This document shows positions 6,785 through 60,390 of a stretch of DNA of 64,000 bases, piece after piece. The DNA is from an uncultured Desulfobacterales bacterium. GTDB taxonomy: Bacteria; Desulfobacterota; Desulfobacteria; Desulfobacterales; JAHEIW01. The position numbers and the translations under genes were made by a program. How positions within the stretch are numbered: the first letter of the stretch is position 1; each line of letters starts with the position of its first letter. The stretch spans positions 1-64,000 of the forward strand of contig CAMYLV010000023.1 in NCBI GenBank assembly GCA_947259495.1. The letters run 5' to 3'. The notes beneath the pieces were generated by a model. It was not told where the DNA came from, did no database searches, and saw nothing but the letters and a program-made list of their open reading frames with translations.

Positions 6785-9214
6785 TTACAAATCCTTCTTG
6801 AAAAACTCTCCGGTATCTGCAATCTCCCCCGGTTTTTTACTGTATTCGGTGGGTTCGGTGCCTTCTTTAAAGCAGACAAACACCGTTTCTTTGGATTCGG
6901 GAATCGGCAAAAGCCCGGTTTCAGCGTCAATCTGAGTAAAAACAACACCTTCGGGTACTTCAAATATTTTGGGCGGCTTATCCGCCAGGATGCGCTGCAT
7001 AAAACCCAGCCAGATCGGGCTGGCGGCGCGGGAACCGGTTTCGGATTTTCCCAGCGGGGCTTCGTCATCAAATCCCACCCAGGTACCGGTGATATACTGC
7101 GGGGTATAGCCCATAAACCAGGCATCAAACAAATTGTTGGTCGTACCCGTCTTGCCCGCCACGGGTCGATTTAGCGCCTTAACGCGCCAGCCGGTCCCGT
7201 GTTTGACCACACCTTCCAGCAGGTGCGTCATGAGGTAGGCGGTGGTTTCTTCGATGACTTTAATGCGCTCGGGCGCCATCTCTTCCAGCACGTTGCCGTC
7301 ACGGTCTTCGATTTTGGTGATAAATACCGGTTCCATCAAATACCCCCGATTGGCAAACACAGAATAAGCCTTGGTCAGCTCGAGCAACGATACCCCTGAA
7401 GACCCCAGGGCAATAGAGAGATCTTTGCTCAAATCAGAGCTTATTCCCAGTTTATTGGCATATTCAATGGCATAATCAATGCCAATATCCTGTAAGATCT
7501 TAATGGTCACGACATTGCGCGATTTGGCCAGGGCGTCGCGCATCAGCGTGGGGCCAAAAAATCGCTCTTTGTAGTTCTTTGGTTTCCACGTAAAATCACG
7601 TTCTTCGTCTTCAAACACAATGGGAGAATCAATAATGACCGAAGCAGCGGTATAAAGCCGCTCCGGTTCTTCCTCATAATGTTTGTCTAAAGCCGCGGCA
7701 TAGATCAGCGGTTTAAAGGCCGAGCCCGGCTGCCGCCTGGATTGGATTGCACGATTAAACTGGCTGTCGCGAAAATCGCGGCCGCCGACGATGGCTTTGA
7801 CGAATCCGGTCTCCGCCTCTATACACATCAGGGCTGCCTGAGCGACAGGCTCCTGTTCCAATGCCAGTTGCCATTGCTCCGAGTCTTCTATTTTTTCTTT
7901 GGCTTTAACCCATATGACGTCTCCAGTTTGCAGGGCCTCTCCGGGGCGTTTAAGCTTGACTTCATAATAGGCCACCTCTATATCCGGCTGGCGGGCCCAA
8001 TCCATATCGGCCAGCGCTATTTTTCCTAAAGAATTTCCAATTCGAACCGTGACGGCTTTGTTTTTATCATCCACCTTGATCACCACACCTTTGATGATCT
8101 GGCCGACTTCAAGGGGATTTTCATCCAGCTCGGACTGAACCGTTTTAGAAAATGTCTCAATTTCTTCAGGGGCCAGTTTTTTTAGCGGCCCGCGAAAGCC
8201 CTGGCGTTTATCAAGTTCAAACAAACCTTTCTCAGTTTCTTCCTGGGCAATTTTTTGCATCTCTATATTGGCAGCGGTATAAATTTTGAGTCCCTGGGTG
8301 TACAAAACCTCACGACCGTATTTTTCTTCGACGTAGCGGCGAATCTGTTCGGTATAATAGGGGATTTCTTCGATATACAGGTTGCGACGCGGCTTAATCT
8401 CCACCTCAGTATTAATGGCCTCGGCGGCCTGTGTCCGGGTGATATATCCTTCGGCAACCATACGGTTGAGCACATATATTTGTCGCTGTTTAGCCCGTTC
8501 CGGATGCCGGAACGGAGAGTATTTACTGGGCGCCTGGGGCAGGCCTGCCAGGATGGCACATTCAGCCAGATTGAGATCCGTAATGGATTTGCCGAAATAA
8601 TTATCGGCCGCCGCCTCAACTCCGTAAGCACCGTGGCCCAGGTAGATCTGGTTCAAATACAGGTAAAGAATTTCTTTCTTGTTAAAGGCCTTGTCGATCC
8701 GATAAGCCAGGATGGCCTCTTTTATTTTGCGCGTGTAGGTTTTTTGGGGCGTCAGCAAAAAGGATTTGGTCACCTGCTGGGTGATCGTGCTACCGCCCTG
8801 GACAATAGTCCCGGCCTCCAGGTTCTTAAAAAACGCCCGCAGGATGCTGTAAAAATCGATGCCCTTATGTTTGTAGAATCGTGAATCCTCGGCGGCAATA
8901 AATGCATTGATCAGTTCCAGGGGCATTTCCTCGAGGGGTTTAATGATGCGGCGCTCTTCAAAGAATTCGGCAATTGTGCGGCCGTCATCCGAGTAAACCG
9001 TGGTGATGATGGGCGGATGATATTGTGTCAAACTGATGATCTTTGGCAGGTTTTTGCTCAGGTAAAGATAGACCCCAGCGCTGGCCATCGCGCCCATGAT
9101 GGCAACAATAAATCCCAGTAAAAACGACCACAGCAAAAATTTCCTGAAAAAATGTCGCTTTTTAGGCCTCGTGCGCTGCGTTAAAATATCAGATTTGGTT
9201 TTGGGTCTGGCCAT
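6785..9214 (-). CDS. Penicillin-binding protein 1A (bifunctional transglycosylase/transpeptidase)
   Basis: 809 residues, normal for class A PBPs. A basic cytoplasmic tail and one membrane helix (about 27-52) are followed by the GT51 transglycosylase domain (about 60-250; EDSRFYKHKGID and QGGSTITQQVTKS). Next comes a linker/OB-like region about 330-440. The transpeptidase domain carries the SxxK active-site motif in GSAFKP, the SRN motif in SRNVVTIK and the KTG box in VAGKTGTTNN. It polymerises and cross-links peptidoglycan at the inner-membrane outer face. The ribosome-binding site before the ATG is weak (GGGGATATCCGCAG). It is convergent with the binding-protein gene, with a repeat between. 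Confidence 0.96.
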   Translation of the reverse strand: MARPKTKSDILTQRTRPKKRHFFRKFLLWSFLLGFIVAIMGAMASAGVYLYLSKNLPKIISLTQYHPPIITTVYSDDGRTIAEFFEERRIIKPLEEMPLELINAFIAAEDSRFYKHKGIDFYSILRAFFKNLEAGTIVQGGSTITQQVTKSFLLTPQKTYTRKIKEAILAYRIDKAFNKKEILYLYLNQIYLGHGAYGVEAAADNYFGKSITDLNLAECAILAGLPQAPSKYSPFRHPERAKQRQIYVLNRMVAEGYITRTQAAEAINTEVEIKPRRNLYIEEIPYYTEQIRRYVEEKYGREVLYTQGLKIYTAANIEMQKIAQEETEKGLFELDKRQGFRGPLKKLAPEEIETFSKTVQSELDENPLEVGQIIKGVVIKVDDKNKAVTVRIGNSLGKIALADMDWARQPDIEVAYYEVKLKRPGEALQTGDVIWVKAKEKIEDSEQWQLALEQEPVAQAALMCIEAETGFVKAIVGGRDFRDSQFNRAIQSRRQPGSAFKPLIYAAALDKHYEEEPERLYTAASVIIDSPIVFEDEERDFTWKPKNYKERFFGPTLMRDALAKSRNVVTIKILQDIGIDYAIEYANKLGISSDLSKDLSIALGSSGVSLLELTKAYSVFANRGYLMEPVFITKIEDRDGNVLEEMAPERIKVIEETTAYLMTHLLEGVVKHGTGWRVKALNRPVAGKTGTTNNLFDAWFMGYTPQYITGTWVGFDDEAPLGKSETGSRAASPIWLGFMQRILADKPPKIFEVPEGVVFTQIDAETGLLPIPESKETVFVCFKEGTEPTEYSKKPGEIADTGEFFKKDL

Positions 9215-45063: not shown

Positions 45064-46245
45064 TTAGTCCAGATATATCCAATCCGATACCGGTACGAAC
45101 TTGCCGGCTTTCGCCCTGTAAACCTTACCCATGGCCGTCGCGTTCGTATTGCCAAAACTGACCAAACCGGCCAGGCCACCGGTATCCCATTTTTGGACCT
45201 GCGGGATGGCGTTCTTCAGATTTTCGCCGGTGATCGGCAGGCCTTTTTCATGACAAATTTGAGCCAGCTTCACGAAAACCATACCGGTGAACCAGCCCTG
45301 CAAGTAGGAGTTGGGCCGATAGGTCACCTCCGGGTGGTGTTTTTGATTAAACGCCTTGACGGTCTTGATCATGGGCACGTCATCCATGTACCAGTATGCG
45401 TACGGTGAAACACCCATATAGCCTTCCCCGTCCGGGCCCAGCTTGTCCAGCAGCATCTTGCTCATGGCCCAGAAAGTGCCCATAAAGGTGATATCCAGGC
45501 CGAAATCTTTGGCGCCGCTGATCACTTCCGGGATCGGTGAGACCACGTAGCCCTGGAATATGCAATAGTCGGGCTTTTTGCGCTTGAGATCCAGCAGCTG
45601 GCTGGTGACATCAACGGCCCCGACCTTGGTGACTTCCTCCGCAACTACTTCGATACCCAGCTCTTTGGCCAGCTTGCGGGCAAAGGGGATCGGATCACGA
45701 CCGAATTCGGTATCGCTGTAAAAAAATGCCACTTTGGGCGCCACGCCTTTTTGCTTGGGGTTCTTGGCAATGTATTTCAACAGCACGCCAAACTGCTGAG
45801 CATAAGTCGGCCCGCTGACAAAGATATAGGGATTTTTCTCCCGGACGCTGAGCTCTTCTGAAAAGCTGGTGGACCCGTAAAGCACCTTGTAACGATTGTT
45901 GATTTCGGGCGCCAGGGCCTTTCCCTGGCCGGTGGACTCGCCGTACATCATGGCCGGTTTTTCCTGAGCCATGATCTTTTTAAAAGAAGCAATAGCCCGC
46001 TTGAGATCATAACCGGTGTCTTCATAGATGTATTTAAATTTTTTGCCACCCACGCCGCCCTGTTCGTTGGTATAGTTTAAAGAATCCATCAGTCCCGCAT
46101 TGAGGTGCTTGCCGGCAAACGCAAAACGCCCGGTGATCGGCTGACAGGCACCCACCTTAATAACATCCTCGGCAAGCAAATTCCCAGTCGTCCCGAGCAA
46201 ACACAGCATCATTGTGAGTGCCAAAAAGATTCTAGTGTGTTTCAT
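45064..46245 (-). CDS. LivJ-type substrate-binding protein
   Basis: 393 residues with signal peptide about 1-25. Peripla_BP_6 features: VIKVGACQPITGRFAFAGKH, EQGGVGGKKFKYIYEDTGYD and FAREL-type core. AAGGAGT precedes the ATG. It is the binding protein of the liv-type importer encoded around it (permeases upstream, livF and acyl-CoA synthetase downstream). The ligand is probably an acid that is then activated to a CoA ester, not necessarily a branched-chain amino acid (inference from the synthetase). Confidence 0.92.
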   Translation of the reverse strand: MKHTRIFLALTMMLCLLGTTGNLLAEDVIKVGACQPITGRFAFAGKHLNAGLMDSLNYTNEQGGVGGKKFKYIYEDTGYDLKRAIASFKKIMAQEKPAMMYGESTGQGKALAPEINNRYKVLYGSTSFSEELSVREKNPYIFVSGPTYAQQFGVLLKYIAKNPKQKGVAPKVAFFYSDTEFGRDPIPFARKLAKELGIEVVAEEVTKVGAVDVTSQLLDLKRKKPDYCIFQGYVVSPIPEVISGAKDFGLDITFMGTFWAMSKMLLDKLGPDGEGYMGVSPYAYWYMDDVPMIKTVKAFNQKHHPEVTYRPNSYLQGWFTGMVFVKLAQICHEKGLPITGENLKNAIPQVQKWDTGGLAGLVSFGNTNATAMGKVYRAKAGKFVPVSDWIYLD

Positions 46246-46296
46246 AGCTTACTCCTTTCTTTTGGGTTATGGGTTTCAAGGGTTTTCAAATGGCCT

Positions 46297-47340
46297 TTAG
46301 TACTCAAAGGGCCACAACCGAAAATAATCTTTCAACCGACGCCACATTTCAGCCAATCCATGGGGCTCGAAAACCAGAAACACGACAATCAGCAGACCGA
46401 AAACAATCTGTTGCAGGGGAAACAGATAGCCCATGGCCTGCGGGAAAGCGTCAACCAGCAGACCCAGCGTGTTTTTGAGTATTTCGGGCACCAGGGTCAT
46501 GAAGATGGCGCCGAAAATGGCACCCAGAACACTGCCCAGCCCGCCGACGATAATCATGGCCAGATAGCGAATACTTTCTATTAGCGGGAAATGCTCGGGG
46601 GTCACAGTTCTCAGGAAGTTAACCCACAAACACCCCGCCACACCGGCCATGAAGGAGCTGATGCCAAAGGCATACATTTTGTAATGAAACAGGTTGATGC
46701 CCATCAACTCGGCCGAAATATCCCGGTCACGGATGGCAATGAAAGCTCGGCCCACCCGGCTCCGGAAAATATTGCGGGTCGCAGTCACGCAGATGACGAC
46801 TACCGCAAGGGTCACAAAATAGAACTTGAATTCATTGTCCAGAGAAATTCCCAGCACGGATGGGGCAGGCAGGTTGATACCCCGAATACCGCCAGTCATG
46901 GACTCCCAATGCACGAAAATAAACTCAAAGATAACCTGAGCGGCGAGCGTGGCAATACACAGATACAGTCCCTTCATTCGCATGGAGGGCCCACCGACGA
47001 TCAGGCCGAAAACGGCAGCCGACAACCCCGATAACGGCAGGCACAGAAAAAAGGGCACCTCCAGCCGGGTCGTCAAAATCGCCGCGGTGTAAGCACCGAT
47101 GCCCACAAAAGCCGCATGCCCTAAAGAGATCTGCCCGGCAAAGCCGGTTAGAATGTTGAGCCCCACCGCCGCCACGATGGCCACCCCCACCAGGTTGGCC
47201 ATGTACAGCCAATAATTACCGGCCACGAAGGGAAATATTAAAAGGGCCGCAAACAAGATGCCCATCCAGAAACGGACCGTGGGCGTTTTAAAGACCGCTT
47301 CATCTGCGACATAATTCGCTTTGAAATCTCCGATACGCAT
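46297..47340 (-). CDS. livM: LivM-type ABC permease
   Basis: 347 residues, about ten membrane helices. LivM marks: VVAAVGLNILTGFAGQISLGHAAFVGIGAYTAAIL and the C-terminal MIIVGGLGSVLGAIFGAIF. It starts 15 nt after livH ends. Forms the inner-membrane pore with LivH. Confidence 0.94.
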   Translation of the reverse strand: MRIGDFKANYVADEAVFKTPTVRFWMGILFAALLIFPFVAGNYWLYMANLVGVAIVAAVGLNILTGFAGQISLGHAAFVGIGAYTAAILTTRLEVPFFLCLPLSGLSAAVFGLIVGGPSMRMKGLYLCIATLAAQVIFEFIFVHWESMTGGIRGINLPAPSVLGISLDNEFKFYFVTLAVVVICVTATRNIFRSRVGRAFIAIRDRDISAELMGINLFHYKMYAFGISSFMAGVAGCLWVNFLRTVTPEHFPLIESIRYLAMIIVGGLGSVLGAIFGAIFMTLVPEILKNTLGLLVDAFPQAMGYLFPLQQIVFGLLIVVFLVFEPHGLAEMWRRLKDYFRLWPFEY

Positions 47341-47355
47341 ACTAAAATTTTTTCT

Positions 47356-48240
47356 CTAAAGCCTTTCGATCTCTTGTTTGCCGAAAAGACCGTAGGGCTT
47401 GATCAACAGGATCAGCACCAGAACAACAAACGGCGCGACGTCTTTGACCCCGCCGTGAAAATAGGGGTCCAGGTAGCCGCCGGCCAGATTTTCGATGATG
47501 CCCATGATAAAGCCTGCCAGGACAGCACCGCCAATGGAGTCCAGGCCGCCCAGGATAACCACCGGAAATATTTTAAGGCCGATATGTCCCAGGGTGGGGT
47601 GCACACCGCCGATGTTGCCGATGATAATGCCGCCCAGGGTGGCGGCAACGGCCCCGAAAGCCCAGGAGAGGGTGAACATGGCTTTGACGTTGATGCCCAT
47701 GGAAAAAGAAGCGCTCTGATCTGCGGCCGTGGCGCGCATCGCTATTCCGACTTTGGCGTATTTGAACAGCAACGCAAAGACGATCACTACTGCCACCGCC
47801 AGAACAAAGCCATAAAAAAGGTTGGAGCGCACGACGATCTCACCGATTATTAGCGGTGCCCTGGGCACAATCGCCGGAAAACTGCGAAAATCAGATCCCC
47901 AAACCATTTCGGCGATGCCCATCAGAATTGAGCTGAGACCGATGGTGACCATGACAATGCTGATGGTGGGTTGTCCGAGCATGTGCCGCAATACGAGGCG
48001 CTCAACCATAAAACCCAGCAGAGCGGCACAGGCCATCACACCGATAAAGGCGGGGATGGCCGGCAGACCCATGTAAATCATAAAGGAATAAAAAAAATAG
48101 GCCCCGATCATCATGAATTCGCCGGTTGCGAAATTGATGATGCTCGTGGCCTTATAAATCAGGACAAAACCCAGAGCGATTAACGCGTAAACGCCCCCGA
48201 CCGCAAAACCGCTAACGAGCAGCTGAAGGAATATGTCCAT
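47356..48240 (-). CDS. livH: LivH-type ABC permease
   Basis: 294 residues. LivH marks: LVSGFAVGGVYALIALGFVLIYKATSIINFATGEFMMIGAYF at the N-terminus and VVILGGLDSIGGAVLAGFIMGIIENLAGGYL near the end. Its start overlaps the end of livG by 29 nt, a sign of tight co-expression. Confidence 0.94.
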   Translation of the reverse strand: MDIFLQLLVSGFAVGGVYALIALGFVLIYKATSIINFATGEFMMIGAYFFYSFMIYMGLPAIPAFIGVMACAALLGFMVERLVLRHMLGQPTISIVMVTIGLSSILMGIAEMVWGSDFRSFPAIVPRAPLIIGEIVVRSNLFYGFVLAVAVVIVFALLFKYAKVGIAMRATAADQSASFSMGINVKAMFTLSWAFGAVAATLGGIIIGNIGGVHPTLGHIGLKIFPVVILGGLDSIGGAVLAGFIMGIIENLAGGYLDPYFHGGVKDVAPFVVLVLILLIKPYGLFGKQEIERL

Positions 48241-49012
48241 TGCGTGCCTTTTTTTCTCCCAGGTATGCTTTGATCACCTGCGGGTGCTGTTGAACATCTT
48301 CGGGCTTGCCCTCTGCCAACTTTTGGCCGAAGTTGAGAACCAAAACCCGATCAGAGATATCCATGATAACTTTCATATCGTGTTCGATGAGCACGATCGT
48401 CATGTTGTGTTCTTCATTGATGTCCAGTATGAAACGGGCCATATCTTCGGTTTCCTCGGCATTCATGCCAGTGACCGGTTCGTCCATCAACAGTATTTTC
48501 GGTCGCATGGCAAGGGCGCGGCCAAGTTCGACGCGTTTCTGAAGACCGTAGGCCAGAGATCCCACCGGTAGCTTGCGGATGGCCTCGATTTCTAAAAAAT
48601 CGATAATGTCTTCTTCGACTTTGCGCCTGAGCGCCATCTCTTCTCGATGGGCCGGCCCCCAGTAACATAAAGATGCCAGAAGACCGGTTTTCAGATGGCT
48701 ATGGGCTCCGAGTTTTATATTGTCCAGAGCGGACATGCCGCGATAAAGGGCGATATTCTGAAAAGTTCGACCGATGCCCAGGGCGGCGCGCCGATGCGCG
48801 GCCATGTGGGTGATATCCTGGTCTTCGAAAAAAATCTGCCCCTCGTCGGGATGATAAAAGCCGCTGATGCTGTTTAGGATGGATGTCTTGCCGGCGCCGT
48901 TAGGTCCGATGATGGCGAAAACCTCGCCCGGGACGACCTCAAAGCTGACATCGGACAAAACCTGCAGGCCGCGGAAGGATAAAGAAAGCTTTTTGACCGC
49001 AAGAAGGCTCAT
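48212..49012 (-). CDS. livG: LivG-type ABC ATPase
   Basis: 266 residues. Walker A GPNGAGKTSILNS, LivG signature region (AYGLQKRVELGRALAMRPK), Walker B ILLMDEPVTGMNAEE, and the IEHDMKVIMDISDRVLVLNFGQKLAEG switch. This is the first gene of the liv-type operon (order livG, H, M, J, F, acyl-CoA synthetase), all on the minus strand. It powers uptake with LivF. Confidence 0.94.
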   Translation of the reverse strand: MSLLAVKKLSLSFRGLQVLSDVSFEVVPGEVFAIIGPNGAGKTSILNSISGFYHPDEGQIFFEDQDITHMAAHRRAALGIGRTFQNIALYRGMSALDNIKLGAHSHLKTGLLASLCYWGPAHREEMALRRKVEEDIIDFLEIEAIRKLPVGSLAYGLQKRVELGRALAMRPKILLMDEPVTGMNAEETEDMARFILDINEEHNMTIVLIEHDMKVIMDISDRVLVLNFGQKLAEGKPEDVQQHPQVIKAYLGEKKARNGHIPSAAR

Positions 49013-49167: not shown

Positions 49168-50115
49168 TTACTTGCGGCCGGCGGCGGTTTCAATTTCATC
49201 CAGCAGAGCCCGGGCTCTGGCCACGGCCATTTGATCCGCAGCATCATTTGCTGCAGAAAGCGCCAGGTTCCCAAGTTGGAGAGCTGCCGGATTTTGCCCC
49301 TGGGCGAAGGAGCTGCGTGCCGCCCTGAAATACCGGTCTGCCGCCAGACGGTAATTACCCGCCTGCCGATAAGACTCAGCGGCACTTTGCAGGGCACCGG
49401 CCATTTGGGCGTACTGTTCAGCCTGCTGAAGCAAGAAAACCTCCCGGTCAAATTCCCTGGCTGCCATAACCGGTTCTTTTCGAATCAAATGAATACGCCC
49501 TGCCAGACGCGACAATCCGGCACGCAAGCCGCTATCCGACGCACCCGTAGCGAATTTTGCAGCCATTTGCAACTCCCGGGCAGCGAGCGCTGCATCTTCT
49601 TGGTCGCAGGCCATCTGACCGCGCAGCAAATGGGCCTGCACCCGATGGTTGTTCGTGGAAATCGCTTCAGCGTCGGACAAAACCTGCTCCGTGAGCGCCA
49701 GGGCCTCTTCCGGTTGGCCTTGCAAGCGGGCGACCTTTGCCTCAACCAGCAAAATATCGGAAATGTCGCCTTGAACGCTCAAAACTTCTGTTTTGGCCTC
49801 GACAAGTAAAAATCTGGCTTTTTCAAACTGGCTCAGCCGAATGTGGCAGGCCGCCAGGTTGTAAGCCGCATCACCGATCGCCGCCGCGCTGTCCATGACG
49901 CGCGCCCGCTGAAGCGCCCGCTGGTAGAGCGTTGCCGCCTGTTCGGTCAGCCCCTGTTCAAATGCAACACGCCCGGCCGACATGGCCGCCGAAAATTCGG
50001 CATCGATCGCTTCCCCTTTAGGGCGAGCGGAAGTGGCACAGCTGCTTAGCATCAGAAAAGACACCAGGCCGCAAAGGTAAAATGCCACTGCCACAGATAA
50101 CGTCTGTCTGTTCAT
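49168..50115 (-). CDS. Lipoprotein with TPR-like helical repeats, end of Mla-like operon
   Basis: 315 residues. Lipobox LSSC near residue 26 after a long hydrophobic signal. The mature part is Ala/Leu/Gln-rich helical repeats (AAATLYQRALQRARVMDSAAAIGDAAYNLAACHI) in TPR style. It overlaps the MCE gene by 4 nt, so it belongs to the lipid-transport operon. It may take the place of an outer-membrane lipoprotein partner such as MlaA, though it does not look like MlaA itself. Confidence 0.8.
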   Translation of the reverse strand: MNRQTLSVAVAFYLCGLVSFLMLSSCATSARPKGEAIDAEFSAAMSAGRVAFEQGLTEQAATLYQRALQRARVMDSAAAIGDAAYNLAACHIRLSQFEKARFLLVEAKTEVLSVQGDISDILLVEAKVARLQGQPEEALALTEQVLSDAEAISTNNHRVQAHLLRGQMACDQEDAALAARELQMAAKFATGASDSGLRAGLSRLAGRIHLIRKEPVMAAREFDREVFLLQQAEQYAQMAGALQSAAESYRQAGNYRLAADRYFRAARSSFAQGQNPAALQLGNLALSAANDAADQMAVARARALLDEIETAAGRK

Positions 50116-51164
50116 GGCCGCTTCCTTTCTGATCCAACTTCAGCTGCTGGAATCCGCGTCGTCGGCTGGGCCTGTTCGACATAGCCGCGAAGCATCCAGT
50201 GCTTTTGCATGCCGATAACCAGTTTTTCTATCTGCCGCAGCGTCTCCTGGGTTTGTATCATGAGCCCGGGCAGCGACTGCATTTCCTGGTCGAGACGGCC
50301 AACGATGTTCGGAAAGCTGTCCATGGTTTTGTGGATGTCTTTCAAGACCACTTCCGTCTCCTGCAGCACCTTTTCGGTCAATGATGTAAGGCGGGGCATG
50401 GCAGCAAGCTGTTCGCCAACATTATCGGTTAATTGCGCAATCTTGCCGCTGGTTTTTTGGGCATCCAGCAAGACGACCTTCAGCTCGGAAAGAATCGTAT
50501 TTACACCGCTCAACGTTTTTTCAAGCTCGGCGGCCATCGATTTATCCGTTAAAAGCTTGGTGACAATACCTTCACCGGCTTCCAACTTTTGTGAAAAACG
50601 ATTCATGCGTTCGAGCAGCAATTGCAAAGGGCTGTCCGGGTTTCTGAGATTCGCCGCCAGTTCCCCGTATTGCTCAACGGCGTTGAGGGTGGCGTTTTCC
50701 ATGCGCATGAGCGTTTCTTCGATCGTCGTAAAAATGCTCTTTTCAACCGTCGACGGAATCATTGAATTTTTTTTGGGCAGCGCAGCGCCTTTTCCACGGG
50801 TAATATCCAGATAAGTATCTTCGGCCACCAGGCCGAATTTTTTCCGTATGATAGCTGTCGAGTCATCGCGCACAAATCGAAAAAAATCAGCCCGGATGCG
50901 GACCTGGGCTATCATGCGATCGTCTGCGTCGATGGCGATCCTGCGGACCTGTCCGGCAGCGGCACCCAAAAGCATCACTTCAGCCCCTTTACGCAAACCA
51001 TGTGAGCCGCTTTCAGGCAACAAAACGCTGAGCTCGTAATTGCGCGCGAACCATTTTTGGCTGTGCGCAACCACGAAAACAGATACGGCCGCCAGAATAA
51101 CCACCAGGATGACAAAGCCCCCGATGAACTCGTTCACATACCTGAATCTGAAACGCTCGGCCAT
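50112..51164 (-). CDS. MCE domain protein (MlaD-like)
   Basis: 350 residues from the ATG at 51164 behind GGAGG; the frame is open 16 codons further. One N-terminal membrane helix (FIGGFVILVVILAAVSVFVVA), then the MCE domain about 38-115 (YELSVLLPESGSHGLRKGAEVMLLGAAAGQV), then a long helical stretch to about 330 (coiled-coil like, LSGVNTILSELKVVLLDAQ). MCE proteins ferry phospholipids between membranes. It overlaps the upstream ATPase stop by one base. Confidence 0.9.
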   Translation of the reverse strand: MAERFRFRYVNEFIGGFVILVVILAAVSVFVVAHSQKWFARNYELSVLLPESGSHGLRKGAEVMLLGAAAGQVRRIAIDADDRMIAQVRIRADFFRFVRDDSTAIIRKKFGLVAEDTYLDITRGKGAALPKKNSMIPSTVEKSIFTTIEETLMRMENATLNAVEQYGELAANLRNPDSPLQLLLERMNRFSQKLEAGEGIVTKLLTDKSMAAELEKTLSGVNTILSELKVVLLDAQKTSGKIAQLTDNVGEQLAAMPRLTSLTEKVLQETEVVLKDIHKTMDSFPNIVGRLDQEMQSLPGLMIQTQETLRQIEKLVIGMQKHWMLRGYVEQAQPTTRIPAAEVGSERKRP

Positions 51165-51907
51165 TATTTTTCCTCCGCAACCACGTTCATGCGCGCGCCG
51201 AACATGGTGCATTTGAAAGTCGCATCAATACCCGGATCACGCCATACCAGATCTTCGCTGGTTGTCCACAAAATCGCGCACCCCCGGTCACGCGCAATCC
51301 GAACCGCATTAACAAGCGGCGGTAAAATTGCGGGCATCAAATCCCGCGTCGGCCGCTCCAGGATAATCAGAGCCGGCTGACCTAAAAAAGCACGAACAAA
51401 CGCCGATCGGTTGAGATCTTCCAGGCGCGCACCGGAAACCGGTCTATGGGGCAGACCCGGCAGACCAAATATCCTGGCCAGCTCAGTGGCCTCTGCTTCG
51501 ATATCGGTGTCAGTTCGGGTGGTATGGTGTCGTTGAGCGAGAGTTATATTCTGACCCACACCAAGAAAATTAATCCACCCCTGGCTTCCAAAAACACGGC
51601 CCACCTTTGCCCGCTGCGCGGACGCATAATCAGCGGCCATCTCTTGCCAGTTCCTGCCCATAAATTCGACCGCACCGTCAGCGGGTTCTAAAATGCCGGC
51701 GGCCAGATCCGCCAGGGGAAGCCTGAAGCGACCCCGTTCCATCCTGACAAGCAGCAGCTGTCCTTGCGAAAGCCTGAAACTGACATCCCAAAGCGGTGTG
51801 TCAAAGAAAGCCGATGGTTCGGTTGACACCCCCCTAAAGTCCAAAACCGCCGGGCTGTGTGTGCTGCTCTTGCCCGCCAATCCGGGGTCGGTTGTTGAGA
51901 TACTCAC
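51164..51907 (-). CDS. Mla-type ABC ATPase-like protein lacking Walker A (degenerate)
   Basis: About 247 residues from a GTG at 51907 (AGGG upstream; the frame is open to 51970). The overall ABC layout is there: an opening strand LDFRGVSTEP, AAGILEPADGAVEFMGRNW after the P-loop region, and a Q-loop-like SQGWINFLG. But where GxxGxGKST belongs it reads RMERGRFRLPLADL, the signature is VSGARLEDLNRS instead of LSGGQ, and Walker B is LIILERPT with the Glu replaced. So it very likely cannot hydrolyse ATP. It sits between the MlaE and MCE genes where MlaF is normally found. Confidence 0.8.
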   Translation of the reverse strand: MSISTTDPGLAGKSSTHSPAVLDFRGVSTEPSAFFDTPLWDVSFRLSQGQLLLVRMERGRFRLPLADLAAGILEPADGAVEFMGRNWQEMAADYASAQRAKVGRVFGSQGWINFLGVGQNITLAQRHHTTRTDTDIEAEATELARIFGLPGLPHRPVSGARLEDLNRSAFVRAFLGQPALIILERPTRDLMPAILPPLVNAVRIARDRGCAILWTTSEDLVWRDPGIDATFKCTMFGARMNVVAEEK

Positions 51908-52001
51908 TGCTTTTTCAATCCCTGATATCGCATATGGTTGAATATAGGCGCACTGGCGTCTGCAGTGCATGCATCCGCGCCCGACGAGCGCATACCATCG
52001 C

Positions 52002-52790
52002 CTATACGTAAGTTAGAAGCGTAACCAGAGCGGAAATACCGAACAGAGCTCTGACGGAACGCGACAGGGCGCGCTTGGTTGCCGGCGGCACTTCAGTAAT
52101 GGAAGCCTCAACGCGCAGTCCTTCCGCACAACAGATTGCGCCCGTAAACAAAGCCGGAATGATACTTTTGGCCAAAAAATTGATGATGTCCACCGGATTT
52201 AACGAACTGAAAATGCTGTAAATGAACGTACCCGGATCGGCAATGGCGGGACTCAGCAGAAGACTGCACAGATAGCCGCTGCTAAAGGAAACGGCCACGA
52301 AAAGAACCGCCAGGCAGAAAACCGAAACGGTCAAGCTTAACACGCGCGGCATCACCAGATAGATAAACGGGTCCAGGCCCTGGGCGTCCAAAACGCGTAC
52401 TTCACCCGATATTCTCATATTGCCCAATTCTGAGGTCAGCGCGGTTCCACTGCGACCGATGATCAGGAAGTTGGTCAGTATTGGAACCGCTTCACGAATC
52501 AGTACCGTCACAAACAGAGCGCCCAGAGACTTGGACTGACCGACGACCTGCAACCACACCAACGCCTGTGCAACAACAACTATGCCGACCGCACTGGCGA
52601 CATAAAAAACAAATCCGATTGAGTCAATGCCGATCGAAAGAATTTGGCGATAAAACTCGGCTCGAACCGGGCGGGTCCAATAGCGCGGTTTGACACCCAC
52701 AAACAGTGCCTGCGCGGTTATGCCCGACAGGTAACAAATCTCCCGCCATCCGTTCAGCGCAAAATTACCAACTTGAGCAAAGGTATTCAT
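52002..52790 (-). CDS. MlaE-type ABC permease
   Basis: 262 residues with about five membrane helices. MlaE marks: FVYVASAVGIVVVAQALVW near the N-terminus, TNFLIIGRSGTALTSELGNMRISGEVRVLDAQGLDP and a C-terminal EGLRVEASITEVPPATKRALSRSV. GAAGG lies before the ATG. It forms the lipid-transfer channel with the MCE and ATPase proteins encoded downstream. Confidence 0.9.
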   Translation of the reverse strand: MNTFAQVGNFALNGWREICYLSGITAQALFVGVKPRYWTRPVRAEFYRQILSIGIDSIGFVFYVASAVGIVVVAQALVWLQVVGQSKSLGALFVTVLIREAVPILTNFLIIGRSGTALTSELGNMRISGEVRVLDAQGLDPFIYLVMPRVLSLTVSVFCLAVLFVAVSFSSGYLCSLLLSPAIADPGTFIYSIFSSLNPVDIINFLAKSIIPALFTGAICCAEGLRVEASITEVPPATKRALSRSVRALFGISALVTLLTYV

Positions 52791-52953
52791 ACGGCCTTCA
52801 ATGACACATTTTTTGCGGTCTATATTTTAGGCCAAGCATTTTGACGTTCGGCCAAAGTGTGCGCACGCTTTCGAATTGCAAAGACCTGCGATGATCAGTT
52901 ACCACGGAGCAGGACCTTAGCCGGGCTGCTGTTTTGGTTCGCGCAGCGGCCGG

Positions 52954-53961
52954 TTACTTGCGGCCTTCCAGCAGATAGGTTCGGATGTTGCCCTTTCCGG
53001 ACACATAGAATTCGCCACGCTCTTCAAACACAAAATTCTTCTGCAAGCGCTGGTAAGTTTCCGCGCTGACCTGGATGGAACCGGCCAAAGCGGTAGCTTC
53101 CATATGGGCCGCGGTGCTGACCGTATCGCCCCACAGATCGTAGGCCAGTTTTGCGGTTCCGATCACGCCGGCCACCACGGGACCACTGCTGACACCTACG
53201 CGCAACTGAAAGGGGGCATCGAGCCCGGCATCAAAACGGACCATTTCCGCCTGCATGGCAAAGGCCAACTCGGCGACAGCCTCAGCGTGATCCGGACGCG
53301 GCACGGGGACGCCCGCGGCCGCCATGTAAATATCGCCGAGCGTCTTGATTTTTTCCAGACCACGCTGTTCCGCCAGCCGGTCAAACGCTGAAAACACCTG
53401 CCCCAGCAAATCGACCACCTCAATCGGCGTTTTTTGAGCAACCAGACTTGAAAAATCATTGATCCCGGCAAACAGAACGGACGCCTCCGCAAGGCTATCG
53501 GCGATGGGGCCCGAATCCTGTTTCAGGCGGTCGGCGATAAACCTGGGAAAGATGCTGAGGAGCAATCGTTCGGACTTTTCCTTTTCAAGAAAAAGCTCCC
53601 GGTTTTTCTCACTGATCGTTTGCTCCAGGTTGATAATTCGCTGCCCGGCACGCACCCGGGCGAGCAACTCGCCTCTATCATAAGGTTTGGTGACGTAATC
53701 ATCCGCCCCGTCCTTTGAAGTCACCAGTATAATGTAGACATATCCCGGCTTCTCTTTGGTTCTAATTTTTTCACAAAGCTCTAGACCTTTCATGCGGGGC
53801 ATGATCCAGTCCGTGATGACCAGGCGGAAATCTTCTGTTTGAAAGATCTTCCAGGCCATGCGTCCATCATCGGCGATGACAACCTCATAATTTTCTTTCT
53901 CCAAAATCCTTGTGAGAAGTTTCTGAGAATCTTTATCATCTTCGGCAATCAAAATACGCAT
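52954..53961 (-). CDS. Response regulator fused to a degenerate class III nucleotidyl cyclase domain
   Basis: 335 residues. The receiver domain (about 1-105) has IAEDDKD and the phospho-Asp in LVITDWIMP, but about 13 residues are missing between VTSKD and GADDYVTKPY, where helix 4 should be. The cyclase domain (about 145-330) has VLFAGINDF in place of VLFADIVGF, WGDTVSTAAHME in place of the V-N-xxAAR-ME motif, but keeps LEKIKTLGD. So one metal Asp and the transition-state Asn and Arg are missing. Likely a pseudo-cyclase used for binding or signalling, not catalysis. It follows the HPt and hybrid kinase genes. Confidence 0.85.
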   Translation of the reverse strand: MRILIAEDDKDSQKLLTRILEKENYEVVIADDGRMAWKIFQTEDFRLVITDWIMPRMKGLELCEKIRTKEKPGYVYIILVTSKDGADDYVTKPYDRGELLARVRAGQRIINLEQTISEKNRELFLEKEKSERLLLSIFPRFIADRLKQDSGPIADSLAEASVLFAGINDFSSLVAQKTPIEVVDLLGQVFSAFDRLAEQRGLEKIKTLGDIYMAAAGVPVPRPDHAEAVAELAFAMQAEMVRFDAGLDAPFQLRVGVSSGPVVAGVIGTAKLAYDLWGDTVSTAAHMEATALAGSIQVSAETYQRLQKNFVFEERGEFYVSGKGNIRTYLLEGRK

Positions 53962-54025: not shown

Positions 54026-54358
54026 CTAGCTGGATTCAAAAACGATTTCGATCCGTTCCAGGTAATCTGAAAGTTCGTTTAATGACGCCTTTATTTTTTT
54101 GGGGTTTTTATCCTTGGCGGCCTGCTCAATTAAACGGCCGGTATCCGTAATGGCATCGAATCCGTAACCTCCGCCAACGCCTTTCATGGTGTGGCCGAGT
54201 TTGGCGATAGCTGCATAATCATCTCGAGTCAGGGCATCAAAAATAGATTTGATATCCCGGTTTCTGTTTTCAAGGAATCCGGGGATGAGATCTTCCAGAT
54301 CAGAATCTACAGTGACGATGATTTTTTCACCGATGGTTGGGTCATGGGTTGCGGTCAT
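54026..54358 (-). CDS. Histidine phosphotransfer (HPt) protein
   Basis: 110 residues, all helical, with the phospho-His motif LGHTMKGVGGGYGFD near residue 60. It passes phosphate between the hybrid kinase and a response regulator. Its start overlaps the hybrid kinase stop by 4 nt (ATGA), so they are coupled. The REC-cyclase downstream is its most likely target in this locus. Confidence 0.9.
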   Translation of the reverse strand: MTATHDPTIGEKIIVTVDSDLEDLIPGFLENRNRDIKSIFDALTRDDYAAIAKLGHTMKGVGGGYGFDAITDTGRLIEQAAKDKNPKKIKASLNELSDYLERIEIVFESS

Positions 54359-57300
54359 GTTCCCTCCTTATCCTGGCCCACGCGATCCGTCTTAGGTTTG
54401 CTCTGACTGAATTCAGTGAGCGCTTCCAATAAATTAGCCTTCTTAATCGGCTTGGTTAAATGGGCATTACAGCCCGCATCAAGACTTTTTTGGGTGTCTT
54501 CTTTGAGCGCATAAGCCGTCAGGGCCACAATAGGGGTCTCCGCGTTGCCCTTTTGTTTTTCCAGCTGCCGGATCTCCCGGGTGGCTGTGTAACCATCCTT
54601 TACCGGCATCTGCATATCCATCAAAACAAGATCGTATGTTCCTGCCACAAATTTTTCTATGGCAATGGCGCCGTTTTCGGCGATGTCGACCGTGTGGGGC
54701 GTTTTCTTCAGGTATGACGTTATTAATAGCCGATTGTCTTCAGAGTCATCGACCAGCAGAATATGTAAGGAACGCTCTTCGACTGCGGGTAACACACGCT
54801 TGGCTTTCGGCTTTTTGGAAGCAGCCTTGGTTTTGGCCATCGAAGCGATAATGGCATTTTTCAATTCGTTACGCTTGATGGGCTTAACCAGATAACCCGA
54901 TATGCCATGCGTGCTGGCTCTGGAAATATCCCCCGCGCGGTTGTCGGAAGTCAGCATCATAACGGTCATGCCGCAAAGGGAGGCCTCCTGGTGAATATGA
55001 TCCGCCACCTCGAATCCGTCCATACCGGGCATCCGGCAATCCAGCAATACCAGGTCAAACGGGGCTGTCGCCTTGCGGGCGTGCAGTAACGCGTCCAGTC
55101 CGGCCTGGCCGTTTTCTGTCTCAGTCACCGCCATCCCCCATTGCGAAAGCGTTTCCCTCAGCACCAGACGGTTGGTGGCGTTATCGTCAATAATCAGGCT
55201 CTTAAGTCCTTTCATTTCGATCACCGGCAGTTCTGCATCATCCTCGGGCTTGGTCTGCCCGTCAAATCTGGCCGTAAAGTAAAAGGCGCTGCCCTGCCCC
55301 AGAATGCTTTCAACCCAGATTCGCCCTTCCATAGCTTCGACAATGCGCCGAGAGATGTTTAATCCCAAGCCGGTCCCCCCATACTGCCGGGTGGTGGATG
55401 CATCCACCTGGGTGAACTGCTCAAATATCTTTTTGGTTTTATCGGGCGGGATACCGATTCCAGTATCGGTCACTGAAAAAATCAAGTCAAACCCCCGGCC
55501 AGGCGCATACTCCGATGCCGGTTTAACTTCAATGGCGACTTCGCCTTTTTCAGTGAATTTGATGGCATTGCCAACCAAATTCACCAGGATCTGACGCAAG
55601 CGCAGCGGATCGCCAACCAGTTTAACGGGCGTTTCGGCAATGACGCGGCAGGTCAATTCAAGTCCTTTTTTATGGGCTCGCAGGGCCAGAATTTCGCAGG
55701 TCTTTTCGATAATCTCGCTCAGATCAAAGTCTATTTTTTCCAGTTCAAAATGGCCTGCCTCCAGCTTGCTGATATCAAGAATATCGTTTATGAGGGTTAG
55801 AAGGTTTTCACCGGCGGACTGGAAAATTTGAACATATTGGCGTTGCTCGGGCTCAAGGGGTGTTTCACCGAGCAGCTCGGCCATGCCGATGATGGCATTC
55901 ATCGGTGTACGGATTTCATGGCTCATGCTGGCCAAAAACTCGCTTTTGGCCTCGTTGGCGGCTTCAGCCTGATCCTTGGCAACCATTAGATCCGCCTCAC
56001 CCTGGATGCGATTGATTCCCAGGGCGATTTGCGTGGCCACCGTCCCCAGGGTATCTAGAGTTGATGCCAACAGCTTATTACGGGCGAACATGGCCATAAC
56101 CCCCAGCAGTTTTTCCTGAACGATCAGCGGATATCCCGCAAAGGCAACCATGCCTTCCCGCTTGGCCCATGCCTTATCACTGACCCGTGGATCGTTTTGT
56201 ACGTCGTTTGTCAGGTGTGGAAGGCGCTCCCGGGCAATCAGCCCGATTTTAAACTTTCCCACCGGGATGCGGCCATGCGCACCGTCGATATGGGTATAGA
56301 GACCGGCACTGGCCTGCAGTTCAAGTATCTGCTCCTCGCCGTTCAGGGTCCAAATACGCGCAAAAGCAGCGTCCAGATGATCGGCTATAGCCTCGGCGCA
56401 GCGACATAACATGGGTTGAAGTTCATTGTGCTCGGTAATGGCTTTCCCCACATCTGCTCCCAAAGCCATAAGTTTCGACCGCTCCTTAATCTGGAACTCC
56501 GCCTGCTTGCGTTCCGTAATGTCGCGAACAATTCCTGTAAACAGGCGCTTCTGGCCCAGATGCACTTCGCTAACCGCCAGGTACATGGGAAATGTAATGC
56601 CGTCTTTGCGCAATCCGACGACTTCCCGTCCGATACCAATGATCTTGGCCTTGCCGGTGCGCAAATAATTTCTGATATACTCATCATGCTGGCTGTGGTA
56701 AGGCTCGGGCTGCAGCATGTTGACGTTATGACCGACCACTTCAGCCGACGGGTAGCCAAAGATGTGTTCTGCCGCCGGATTAATTGATTGAACGATGCCC
56801 TTTTCGTTGATGGTGATGATGCCGTCGACCGCTGTTTCCACAATGGCACGGTGCCGTGCCTCACTCTGCGTTAACGCTGCCGCTGTCTGCTGACGCACGC
56901 TGATTTCTTTCTCTAGGTTGGTGTTGGCATCAGATAAATCAGCCGTACGATCGTCCACGACACGTTCGATCATTGCCGTGCGGGCGGCCATTACTAAAAG
57001 GATCGTCCCTAACAGGCCGGAAAACAGAAAGCCGCCCATTAAGACGGCCCGGGCCTCCCAGGGCCGATGTGCTGAAAGATACGCGGCTGTCGGCGTGAAT
57101 TGAACCGTCCAGCGACGACCGGCAAAATCGAAAGTGGATCCCGCAAGAAGGCCGTTAAGAGTACCACGGCGGTTAGCTTCCATCATTAGATGCGGTGCTT
57201 CATTTAGCTGTGTGTGATCGGTATATAACAGGTGATGGCCGACAGGAGCCGACAGGTCGTAAATCGTGCACTTAACATCCTGGCGATCGAACGGCTTCAG

Positions 57301-58593
57301 GGCCGCGGTTACCATGTCATCGATCCGCAAAACCCCCAAAGCAAAGCCTTGCAGGTGTTTGCGGCGTGTTTCCGTATCTGTTTGTGACATTCCTCTATTG
57401 TATATCGGCAAAAAGATAAGGATGCCGAACTGGTTCCCGACCTCCTGCACGAGCCTGATTCTGGAGCTGGCGATCGCTTGTCCGGTGTCGCGCGCCCGGT
57501 TCATGGCAGAGCGGCGGGCGGGATTTGAAGCCAGATCGAACCCCAAAGCTTTCGCGTTACCCTTAAAAGGCTCCAGATAATAAACCGGGAAATACTCCGC
57601 CCGCGGCAAGGCGGGCATGAGCTGTCCCCGCGGGTCCGTTTCTTTGATTTGAAAGTCAGGGTACCCATCTTGCTGCGCCCTGGTCTCATAGACAGCCCGT
57701 TCCGCTTCTGGCACACGGGGGATCCATTCCAAAGCCTGAATGCCCGGGTGGCGCGTTAATGGGCGCTCAACGAATTTGGCAAATTCGTTGCGCTCCACCT
57801 CTTGACTCGATCGAAACAGCCCTTCGATGGAATAGAGCACATCGGCATAGGAACTGAGGGTCTTCACCAAGGCCTGGGATAGGTGGTCTGTGCGACGCTC
57901 AAATACCAGTTGCGCCCGCTTTAACTCGCCGGCACGCACATTGAGGAACAACAGGACGGTCAACAGGGTGGCAAGACAGATCGGCAACGCCACCGAGAGC
58001 CACGTGCGAAGCTTTGATTCACGAAGTTCCATGCTCCAGACCAACATCAGTGGAAACAAAAGGAGCACCCCGACGGTATCGCCCAACCACCAAGTCCACC
58101 AGTTCAAAAAATAGTCATTCCAATGAATGACCCCCGCCAAACACAAGCCTGTCACACCGATAGTCCCAGCTATCAGGCAGCTTAGCGGTCCGCCCAAAAT
58201 CAACATTTTAAAAATATTCTTCAGGCGATCGAGCGGGTTTGGGAATCCAACGAATCGCCGTATCAGCTGGGCGCCCGCCAGGGCTTGCAGAGTGATCCCC
58301 ACAGCAATGCCGGTCGGCAACAACGAAGAAATGAGCATCGTGGCAGGGCTGGCGGAATCAAGAGCGATCCCGGCATAGACGCTAAATGAGCCAATCAAGA
58401 TGCCCGGCCATAGGCCCCGACCGAACAAGAGAATGCCGGCCAAAGCGATGCCCGCTGCAGGCCACACCACAGCTGCGTATCCCGGTGGAATGGCCAGCGG
58501 CAACGCGATTTTGCCCACCACAAAATATGCAGCGGCCACACCCAGAATCTGTGCCGCGCGGACCAACAAAGAATGTTGAGATTGTGTTTTCAA
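54355..58593 (-). CDS. Hybrid sensor histidine kinase: MASE1-CHASE-PAS-GAF-HisKA-HATPase-REC-REC
   Basis: 1412 residues. The MASE1-type membrane region (about 10-225, 7-8 helices) and the CHASE sensor region (about 255-480; [14 protein letters not shown] near 288) are followed by a membrane helix near 530, a PAS domain about 585-700, and a GAF domain about 720-865. HisKA follows with the phospho-His in [10 protein letters not shown] near 893, then the ATPase with DTGIGIPPD near 1048 and [10 protein letters not shown] near 1074. Two receivers follow with Asp near 1186 (LLDCRMPG) and 1324 (LMDMQMPV). It is a complete input module feeding a phosphorelay through the HPt protein encoded right after it. 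The signal is unknown. Confidence 0.95.
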
Positions 58594-59376: not shown

Positions 59377-60390
59377 TTACAGACTCAAGGCGCAATGGGC
59401 AGCGCCCAGAAGAGCGGCTCTGTCGTTGAGGATCACCCGCACCGCAATATTTTTCATAAATTTTTCAAAGCGGCCCTTGGCGATAAAGGCAGCCATGAAG
59501 TCTTCAGCCAGAAGCACAGGTAAGATTTTGGGCGGAATACCGCCACCTAAAAACATGCCGCCGGTGGTAACGCCGGTCAAAGCCAGATTGCCGGCAACTG
59601 ATCCGAAAATACGGCAAAACCGCTGCAGAGCCTCTTGGCAAAGGGGATCATTGCCGTTGATGGCGTATTCGGTAATCACGCGCGCGGCATCGGATGCGCG
59701 CATGGCCTTCTTAACCCTGGACGATTCGGCATTATCCCCAGTTGATTTCAGCCAGTCATAGATATTAACCAATCCCTGGCCGGAAAGAACGCGCTCTGCG
59801 CTGACATGGCCGAAGCGGGCGTGCAGATACTGCCACAGACCCGTCTCGGATTCATCGGAGGGGGCGAAACCGGCATGCCCGCCCTCGGAGGCGACCGGCC
59901 GGTAGCGGCCATCCGCATAAACCAGCAGGGCCAGGCCCAGACCGGTGCCCGGGGCCACCAGACCGATGTTTTGGCCTTTACGAATCCGTGTGCCGTTTAG
60001 CGCTTTAACCTCGCGATGGTTGAGCAATGGAATTGCCATAGCGGTGCTGCCCAAATCGTTGATCAACCGGACCTGCTGCCAGCCAAAGCGCCGGTGGAGC
60101 TTTTTTTCTGATACCACCCAGGGCAGATTGGTGGTGCGGCATTCGCCATTGATCACCGGTCCGGCGATACCGAAACAGGCGGTTTTAATCTTTTCCGGGT
60201 AGCGCTCGATCATTTGGTCAATGATCACCTCGAGGCTGCCCGCATCCCGGCTGGAAAACTCAGCGGTCACCCGGGCCACCGGGCGCATCTTGCCGGCAAC
60301 GAACAAACCCAGACGGGTCTTGGTACCGCCAATATCGCCGGCCAGCACACAGACCGGCTTTTTTAATACCTTGGTTTGAGAAGTAGGCAT
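59377..60390 (-). CDS. glk: Glucokinase
   Basis: 337 residues, normal for bacterial Glk. ATP-binding AGDIGGTKTRLGLF at the N-terminus, sugar-contact region with ACFGIAGPVINGECRTTNLPW, LINDLGSTAMAIP, and GGGIPPKILPV near the end. Phosphorylates glucose to glucose 6-phosphate in the cytoplasm. Two small genes upstream on the same strand may be co-transcribed. Weak ribosome-binding site. Confidence 0.93.
   Translation of the reverse strand: MPTSQTKVLKKPVCVLAGDIGGTKTRLGLFVAGKMRPVARVTAEFSSRDAGSLEVIIDQMIERYPEKIKTACFGIAGPVINGECRTTNLPWVVSEKKLHRRFGWQQVRLINDLGSTAMAIPLLNHREVKALNGTRIRKGQNIGLVAPGTGLGLALLVYADGRYRPVASEGGHAGFAPSDESETGLWQYLHARFGHVSAERVLSGQGLVNIYDWLKSTGDNAESSRVKKAMRASDAARVITEYAINGNDPLCQEALQRFCRIFGSVAGNLALTGVTTGGMFLGGGIPPKILPVLLAEDFMAAFIAKGRFEKFMKNIAVRVILNDRAALLGAAHCALSL

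Follow-up and report, generated by a model that had tools for sequence, protein, structure and literature searches.

Five genes lie in a row on the reverse strand of the window, the whole 64,000-nucleotide stretch of an uncultured Desulfobacterales genome analyzed here. They encode a receiver (REC) domain joined to a class III cyclase domain (52954..53961), an MlaE-type permease (52002..52790; Pfam MlaE 165 bits against a cut-off of 22.5), a subunit with the fold of an ABC nucleotide-binding domain (NBD), hereafter the pseudo-ATPase (51164..51907), an MCE protein of the MlaD type (50112..51167; Pfam MlaD 34.5 bits, cut-off 25.1), and a TPR lipoprotein with the lipobox LSSC (49168..50115). The pseudo-ATPase reading frame is real, held between the genes for MlaE and the MCE protein and sharing 4 bases with the latter; it gives 247 residues from a GTG at 51907, or 268 from an alternative ATG at 51970. 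The MCE protein has an N-terminal membrane anchor, one MCE domain, and a long tail that is probably coiled-coil, judging from its sequence, and the TPR lipoprotein is likely its outer-membrane partner. Upstream, on the same strand, are an HPt phosphotransfer protein (54026..54358) and a hybrid histidine kinase of MASE1-CHASE-PAS-GAF-HisKA-HATPase-REC-REC architecture (54355..58593). Downstream (45064-49012) lies an ordinary ABC operon of the branched-chain amino acid type, with a binding protein, two permease-like open reading frames, and an intact ATPase.

By sequence search, the relatives of the pseudo-ATPase are MlaF and LolD. Pfam ABC_tran scores it at 18.4 bits, below the cut-off of 25; elsewhere in the same genome, more than 75 ABC domains score above that cut-off, and GxxGxGK[ST] is kept in 30/30 of the best-scoring ABC loci sampled from it. 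At the Walker A position, residues 55-64 (51716..51745, reverse strand, as are all motifs given here) read RMERGRFRLP, with the glycine pattern gone and the lysine replaced by Arg62. The motifs that the first-pass annotation quoted when it reported the loss of Walker A, signature, and catalytic Glu do occur in the sequence, although it took VSGARL for the signature; in our alignment, the true equivalent is ARLEDLNR (51407..51430), 2-3 residues downstream, in place of LSGGMKKR. Because LSGGM aligns to ARLEDLNR and not to VSGARL, the loss of the signature goes further than had been stated. The degenerate Walker B, LIILERPT (51347..51370), has Glu for Asp and Arg for the catalytic Glu in the alignment, and the His-switch position (51257..51259) is occupied by Ser.

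A search at the protein level in 96 related genomes returned six orthologues at 41-45% identity, well clear of the remaining matches, and a profile built from these six recovered 14 loci in 13 of the 389 genomes sampled from the order, at 266-394 bits with everything else at 87 or below. The family thus comprises the window copy and 13 further orthologous loci, spread over 12 other genomes from the order. The next-best profile match reached 79 bits in the order sample and 86 bits among 395 genomes sampled from the phylum, and a class-level sample, which largely overlaps that of the order, gave the same 14 loci. Among these order and phylum genomes, which are samples with many incomplete assemblies, no intact orthologue of the pseudo-ATPase was found. 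The single-protein contig scan, our only and weak reach into other phyla, returned two unrelated ABC ATPases at 24% identity and missed the family itself. The 14 pseudo-ATPases form a single clade (support 100/100), and the five-gene core of cyclase, MlaE, pseudo-ATPase, MCE protein, and TPR lipoprotein is fixed across the loci: the MCE gene adjoins the pseudo-ATPase in all of them, the lipoprotein is found wherever the contig extends that far, and no conserved extra neighbor or output gene was found beside the core. At one locus (L077, genome G341), a 113-residue open reading frame with no Pfam match (6904-7242) sits between the MCE and lipoprotein genes.

The motif losses run through the family. 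In the alignment, neither GxxGxGK[ST] nor LSGG[MQ] occurs in any of the 14 members, the Q-loop Gln is missing from all, Walker B Asp is Glu in 14/14, and the His switch is absent from 14/14. The catalytic Glu follows another pattern, being Glu in 9/14 and Asp in 2/14 and Arg only in the window copy and its nearest relatives at L076 and L077; its loss, correctly noted for the window copy, is by this alignment not a trait of the family. The pseudo-ATPase evolves under purifying selection comparable to that on its partners, with pairwise dN/dS values (NG86) of 0.16-0.26 against 0.11-0.33 for MlaE and 0.13-0.25 for the MCE protein; those of the cyclase are 0.10-0.25. Pairwise distances correlate (r 0.88-0.95), a correlation to which shared descent also contributes. 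The window pseudo-ATPase is 64% identical to a copy in G199, a genome of another family, against 37-39% to copies from its own genus, and genome G119 holds two copies; the G199 affinity and the double copy (window 49168-53961, L076, L065, L066) suggest horizontal transfer or old paralogy.

The AlphaFold model of the pseudo-ATPase (pLDDT 88.8, pTM 0.89) has E. coli MlaF as its top Foldseek match (6xgz, E 1.7e-16, TM 0.78), and VIA-align places it on LolD, MacB, and MlaF at Z 24-27 (24.2 for MlaF), so that in the predicted structure the NBD fold is retained. Conservation within that fold is distributed unevenly. Against an overall mean pairwise identity of 0.47, the weakest stretches include the windows around the P-loop (0.32) and the signature (0.31), whereas the strongest are the post-signature helix (0.76) and the Q-loop/coupling groove (0.63). 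This distribution suggests that docking was kept while nucleotide contact was released. To judge from its sequence, the protein may still bind nucleotide weakly without a P-loop.

The permease belongs to a clade of its own. A profile of the family MlaEs recovers the 14 pseudo-ATPase loci and no further ones (300-377 bits; the next match scores 126), and no member of this clade was therefore found with an intact ATPase. In MlaE permeases, the coupling helix is the part that docks on MlaF (PMC7790496); in the window copy (52368..52406) it reads GEVRVLDAQGLDP, where the canonical form is EQIDALxTM...P. In alignments, the ordinary MlaEs of the same genomes read [E/D/Q][E/Q][I/V]DALxT, with the Asp invariant in 27/27, whereas the family MlaEs read [G/A][Q/E/K][V/I/L][R/H]xL[D/E]A (the GQVRML type) in 14/14. 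The Asp has become Arg or His, and the first residue has changed from Glu, Asp, or Gln to Gly or Ala, in all 14 family MlaEs and in none of the 27 canonical ones. Other MlaE genes, mostly next to intact ATPases, are present in 12/13 family genomes, and the family system is therefore an addition to ordinary Mla and not a replacement. The exception is genome G079 (83% complete), in which no other MlaE was found. The window genome itself has three further MlaE loci with MlaF-type ATPases, all three intact by alignment, which answers the proposal that a second MlaF be looked for. Elsewhere in the genome, a canonical MlaE gene at G000:C31:59344-59906 (L004, L005) is in two pieces that meet at base 59520, probably the result of a frameshift or a sequencing error.

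The first-pass annotation had touched on neither the coupling-helix change nor the neighboring cyclase, the sequence of which makes it a second predicted pseudoenzyme. A class III cyclase gene, fused to a sensor or receiver module, lies directly upstream of MlaE at 14/14 loci. Active class III cyclases rely on two metal-binding Asp residues and a transition-state Asn and Arg (PMC4886424). In the window, the cyclase domain is readily recognized (Pfam Guanylate_cyc, 186 bits), but a metal Asp is Gly, the transition-state Asn is Ser, and the Arg is His; across the family, the Arg is kept in 0/14, the Asn in 1/14, and the first metal Asp in 1/14. All 6 other cyclases encoded in the window genome keep Asn, Arg, and metal Asp, and 17/18 of the next-closest cyclases in the order keep Asn and Arg. 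By itself, a missing Asn is not decisive, since Rv1900c carries His at that position (PMC4886424); because the Arg and the metal Asp are lost too, catalytic death is strongly supported, and the residues present provide strong evidence that the family cyclase is a second pseudoenzyme of the operon. The AlphaFold model of the REC-pseudo-cyclase is confident only in part (pLDDT 74) and poor in the C-terminal half of the REC domain, and its cyclase domain matches Rv1625c and relatives in Foldseek, with 45-48% identity to Rv1625c or homologues in structural alignment. The window REC is about 12 residues shorter than that of L076, in frame (KDEKADLVRALDAGADD reduced to KDGADD), in a part where the model is poor.

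The sensor modules, on the other hand, vary. The window and L076 cyclases carry REC and that of L077 carries GAF, while the remaining full-length cyclases have a long form that combines dCache, transmembrane, and GAF parts (L065 and L071 were domain-scanned, and the rest align with them). In several loci, the last base of the long-form cyclase gene overlaps the first base of MlaE. The HPt protein and the hybrid kinase are probable inputs of the phosphorelay subtype only. At L076, an unannotated 110-residue open reading frame occupies the place of the HPt gene, and a kinase related to the window hybrid kinase is encoded upstream of the pseudo-cyclase. A 15th family pseudo-cyclase (L176, 3638-6124, genome G005) lies beside an N-run, and no family MlaE or pseudo-ATPase was found in that genome; either the transporter genes were lost or the assembly has a gap there. 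As the G005 copy illustrates, the pseudo-cyclase could act elsewhere than on the transporter.

Taken together, our comparative analyses show that selection has kept a predicted pseudo-ATPase together with a permease, an MCE protein, and a TPR lipoprotein of its own and with an apparently dead sensor cyclase. A recent pseudogene or an assembly error, for which one could cite the strong motif loss and a window REC short by about a dozen residues, has a negligible probability and was rejected on the orthologues and dN/dS, because the loss is common to all 14 orthologous loci, where the frames are open, dN/dS is low, and the fold is kept. The first-pass annotation had held that the gene was not simply decaying, as fold pattern, gene order, and tight overlaps are kept, and had named intact orthologues beside a single broken window copy as the finding that would speak for pseudogenization. 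The orthologues turned out the other way, and the shared loss in a fully supported clade, the low dN/dS, and the fold (for which it had proposed the structure prediction that singled out MlaF) bear out its argument and make a nucleotide-independent or scaffold role the better reading. Its alternative, pairing with another ATPase, is not supported as a half-active dimer. Degenerate NBDs commonly partner intact ones, as in many asymmetric ABC exporters with one active site, and intact MlaFs are at hand in the genome, but because the pseudo-ATPase lacks both Walker A and the signature, its dimer with an intact MlaF would leave each composite site incomplete, and no intact NBD was found among the neighbors in the 14 operons. 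We consider such a heterodimer highly improbable and rejected it.

The main rival is an exchange with canonical MlaF, in which the operon MlaE would use an intact MlaF from another locus and the pseudo-ATPase would be a competing off-state placeholder. The three intact MlaF loci of the genome and the other MlaE genes of 12/13 family genomes would supply the partner, and there is a precedent in mycobacteria, where MceG is common to the Mce systems and Mce1N prevents the NBD from docking and displaces MceG (PMC10517005). However, the family coupling helix is altered, charge reversal included, at positions fixed in 27/27 canonical MlaEs, which makes canonical MlaF docking doubtful, and G079, at 83% completeness, shows no other MlaE. 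The coupling-helix sequences thus weaken this rival and favor a dedicated MlaE-pseudo-ATPase interface over a borrowed MlaF, leaving borrowing unlikely. An equally unlikely reading is that the system serves as a sensor or tether and not as a transporter, in which MlaE, MCE protein, and lipoprotein would sense or bridge the envelope and the pseudo-ATPase and pseudo-cyclase would signal inward. It would account for two cytoplasmic nucleotide enzymes being dead and for sensor modules (REC, GAF, dCache-GAF) that vary around a constant five-gene core. On the other hand, MlaE and MCE proteins are known lipid-moving parts, the dCache form already senses the outside, so that a second sensor is not needed, and no output gene is conserved beside the core.

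The reading we prefer, with a probability of about 0.45, is that the product of the operon is a dedicated complex for MCE lipid transport with a true pseudo-ATPase, working as a signal-gated, ATP-independent conduit. An ordinary Mla cycle is unlikely with such a subunit, since Mla of E. coli no longer functions when its MlaF carries K47A or E170Q (PMC7367683); MlaF Walker mutants still bind MlaB (PMC7367683). In the proposed complex, the pseudo-ATPase dimer would dock on the rewired MlaE coupling helices, where it would serve as a structural clamp or a gate and stand in for the ATP cycle. The pseudo-cyclase would receive its input from a ligand at the dCache-TM-GAF sensor or from REC phosphorylation by the upstream hybrid kinase and HPt protein, and would hand a conformational change to the MlaE/pseudo-ATPase unit. 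Following their gradient, lipids would then travel between the inner and outer membranes via the ring and tail of the MCE protein and via the lipoprotein, with no ATP hydrolysis by the pseudo-ATPase subunit. More tentative than the complex itself is this specific conversion of a lipid ABC-type transporter into a passive conduit with the NBD dimer as gate and the cyclase domain as the relay from sensor or phosphorelay to permease; docking, gating, transport direction, and the passive mechanism are what we infer. Passive or PMF-driven action has been considered for PqiA, since it has no ATPase (PMC10897342). Energy may also be supplied in trans, given the intact ATPases that mostly accompany the other MlaE genes of the family genomes.

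Among known systems, the operon shares with MlaFEDB of E. coli and A. baumannii an MlaE permease, an MCE protein, and an NBD-fold subunit in one operon, but here the ATPase motifs are missing, the coupling helix is rewired, a TPR lipoprotein and a pseudo-cyclase are added, no MlaB gene was seen in the operon, and the C-terminal extension of MlaF is lacking. PqiABC and LetAB (YebST) likewise represent MCE transport without ATP hydrolysis by an ATPase of their own, and Pqi also has a lipoprotein partner; PqiA and LetA, however, are not of the MlaE type and work without any NBD-like subunit, whereas the permease here is MlaE-type. The chimeric Mla-Pqi system Mpc of Brucella has in common an MlaE/MlaF-type core and an MCE protein that is proposed to span the gap to the outer membrane (PMC12436622), but MpcF is described as an MlaF homologue in a well-conserved ABC transporter, and the available text of that study describes no pseudo-cyclase (PMC12436622). 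The mycobacterial Mce systems, with MceG and Mce1N, also have MlaE-type permeases; there, NBD docking can be regulated and the ATPase is shared in trans, the active NBD being encoded elsewhere, whereas the present operon encodes a dedicated, inactive NBD of its own. With class III adenylyl cyclases of the Rv1625c type, the pseudo-cyclase shares the catalytic-domain fold, but it has lost the catalytic Asn, Arg, and metal Asp and is tied to a transporter operon. Within the open-access literature, to which our search was confined (subscription papers lay outside it), we found no match for a pseudo-ATPase MCE system or for a transporter-linked pseudo-cyclase.

The family provides a case of an NBD subunit kept with neither composite site intact, in which an ATP-driven machine of the MlaFE type evolved into one without the ATPase residues while retaining the NBD. 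Because the NBD was kept after these residues were lost and the genome holds both kinds, the two states can be compared within one protein family and one genome, which bears on the way lipids are moved in MCE systems without an ATPase, Pqi and Let among them. From a signaling point of view, a pseudo-cyclase tied to a transporter may let a signal act directly on membrane-lipid traffic, with no second messenger in between.
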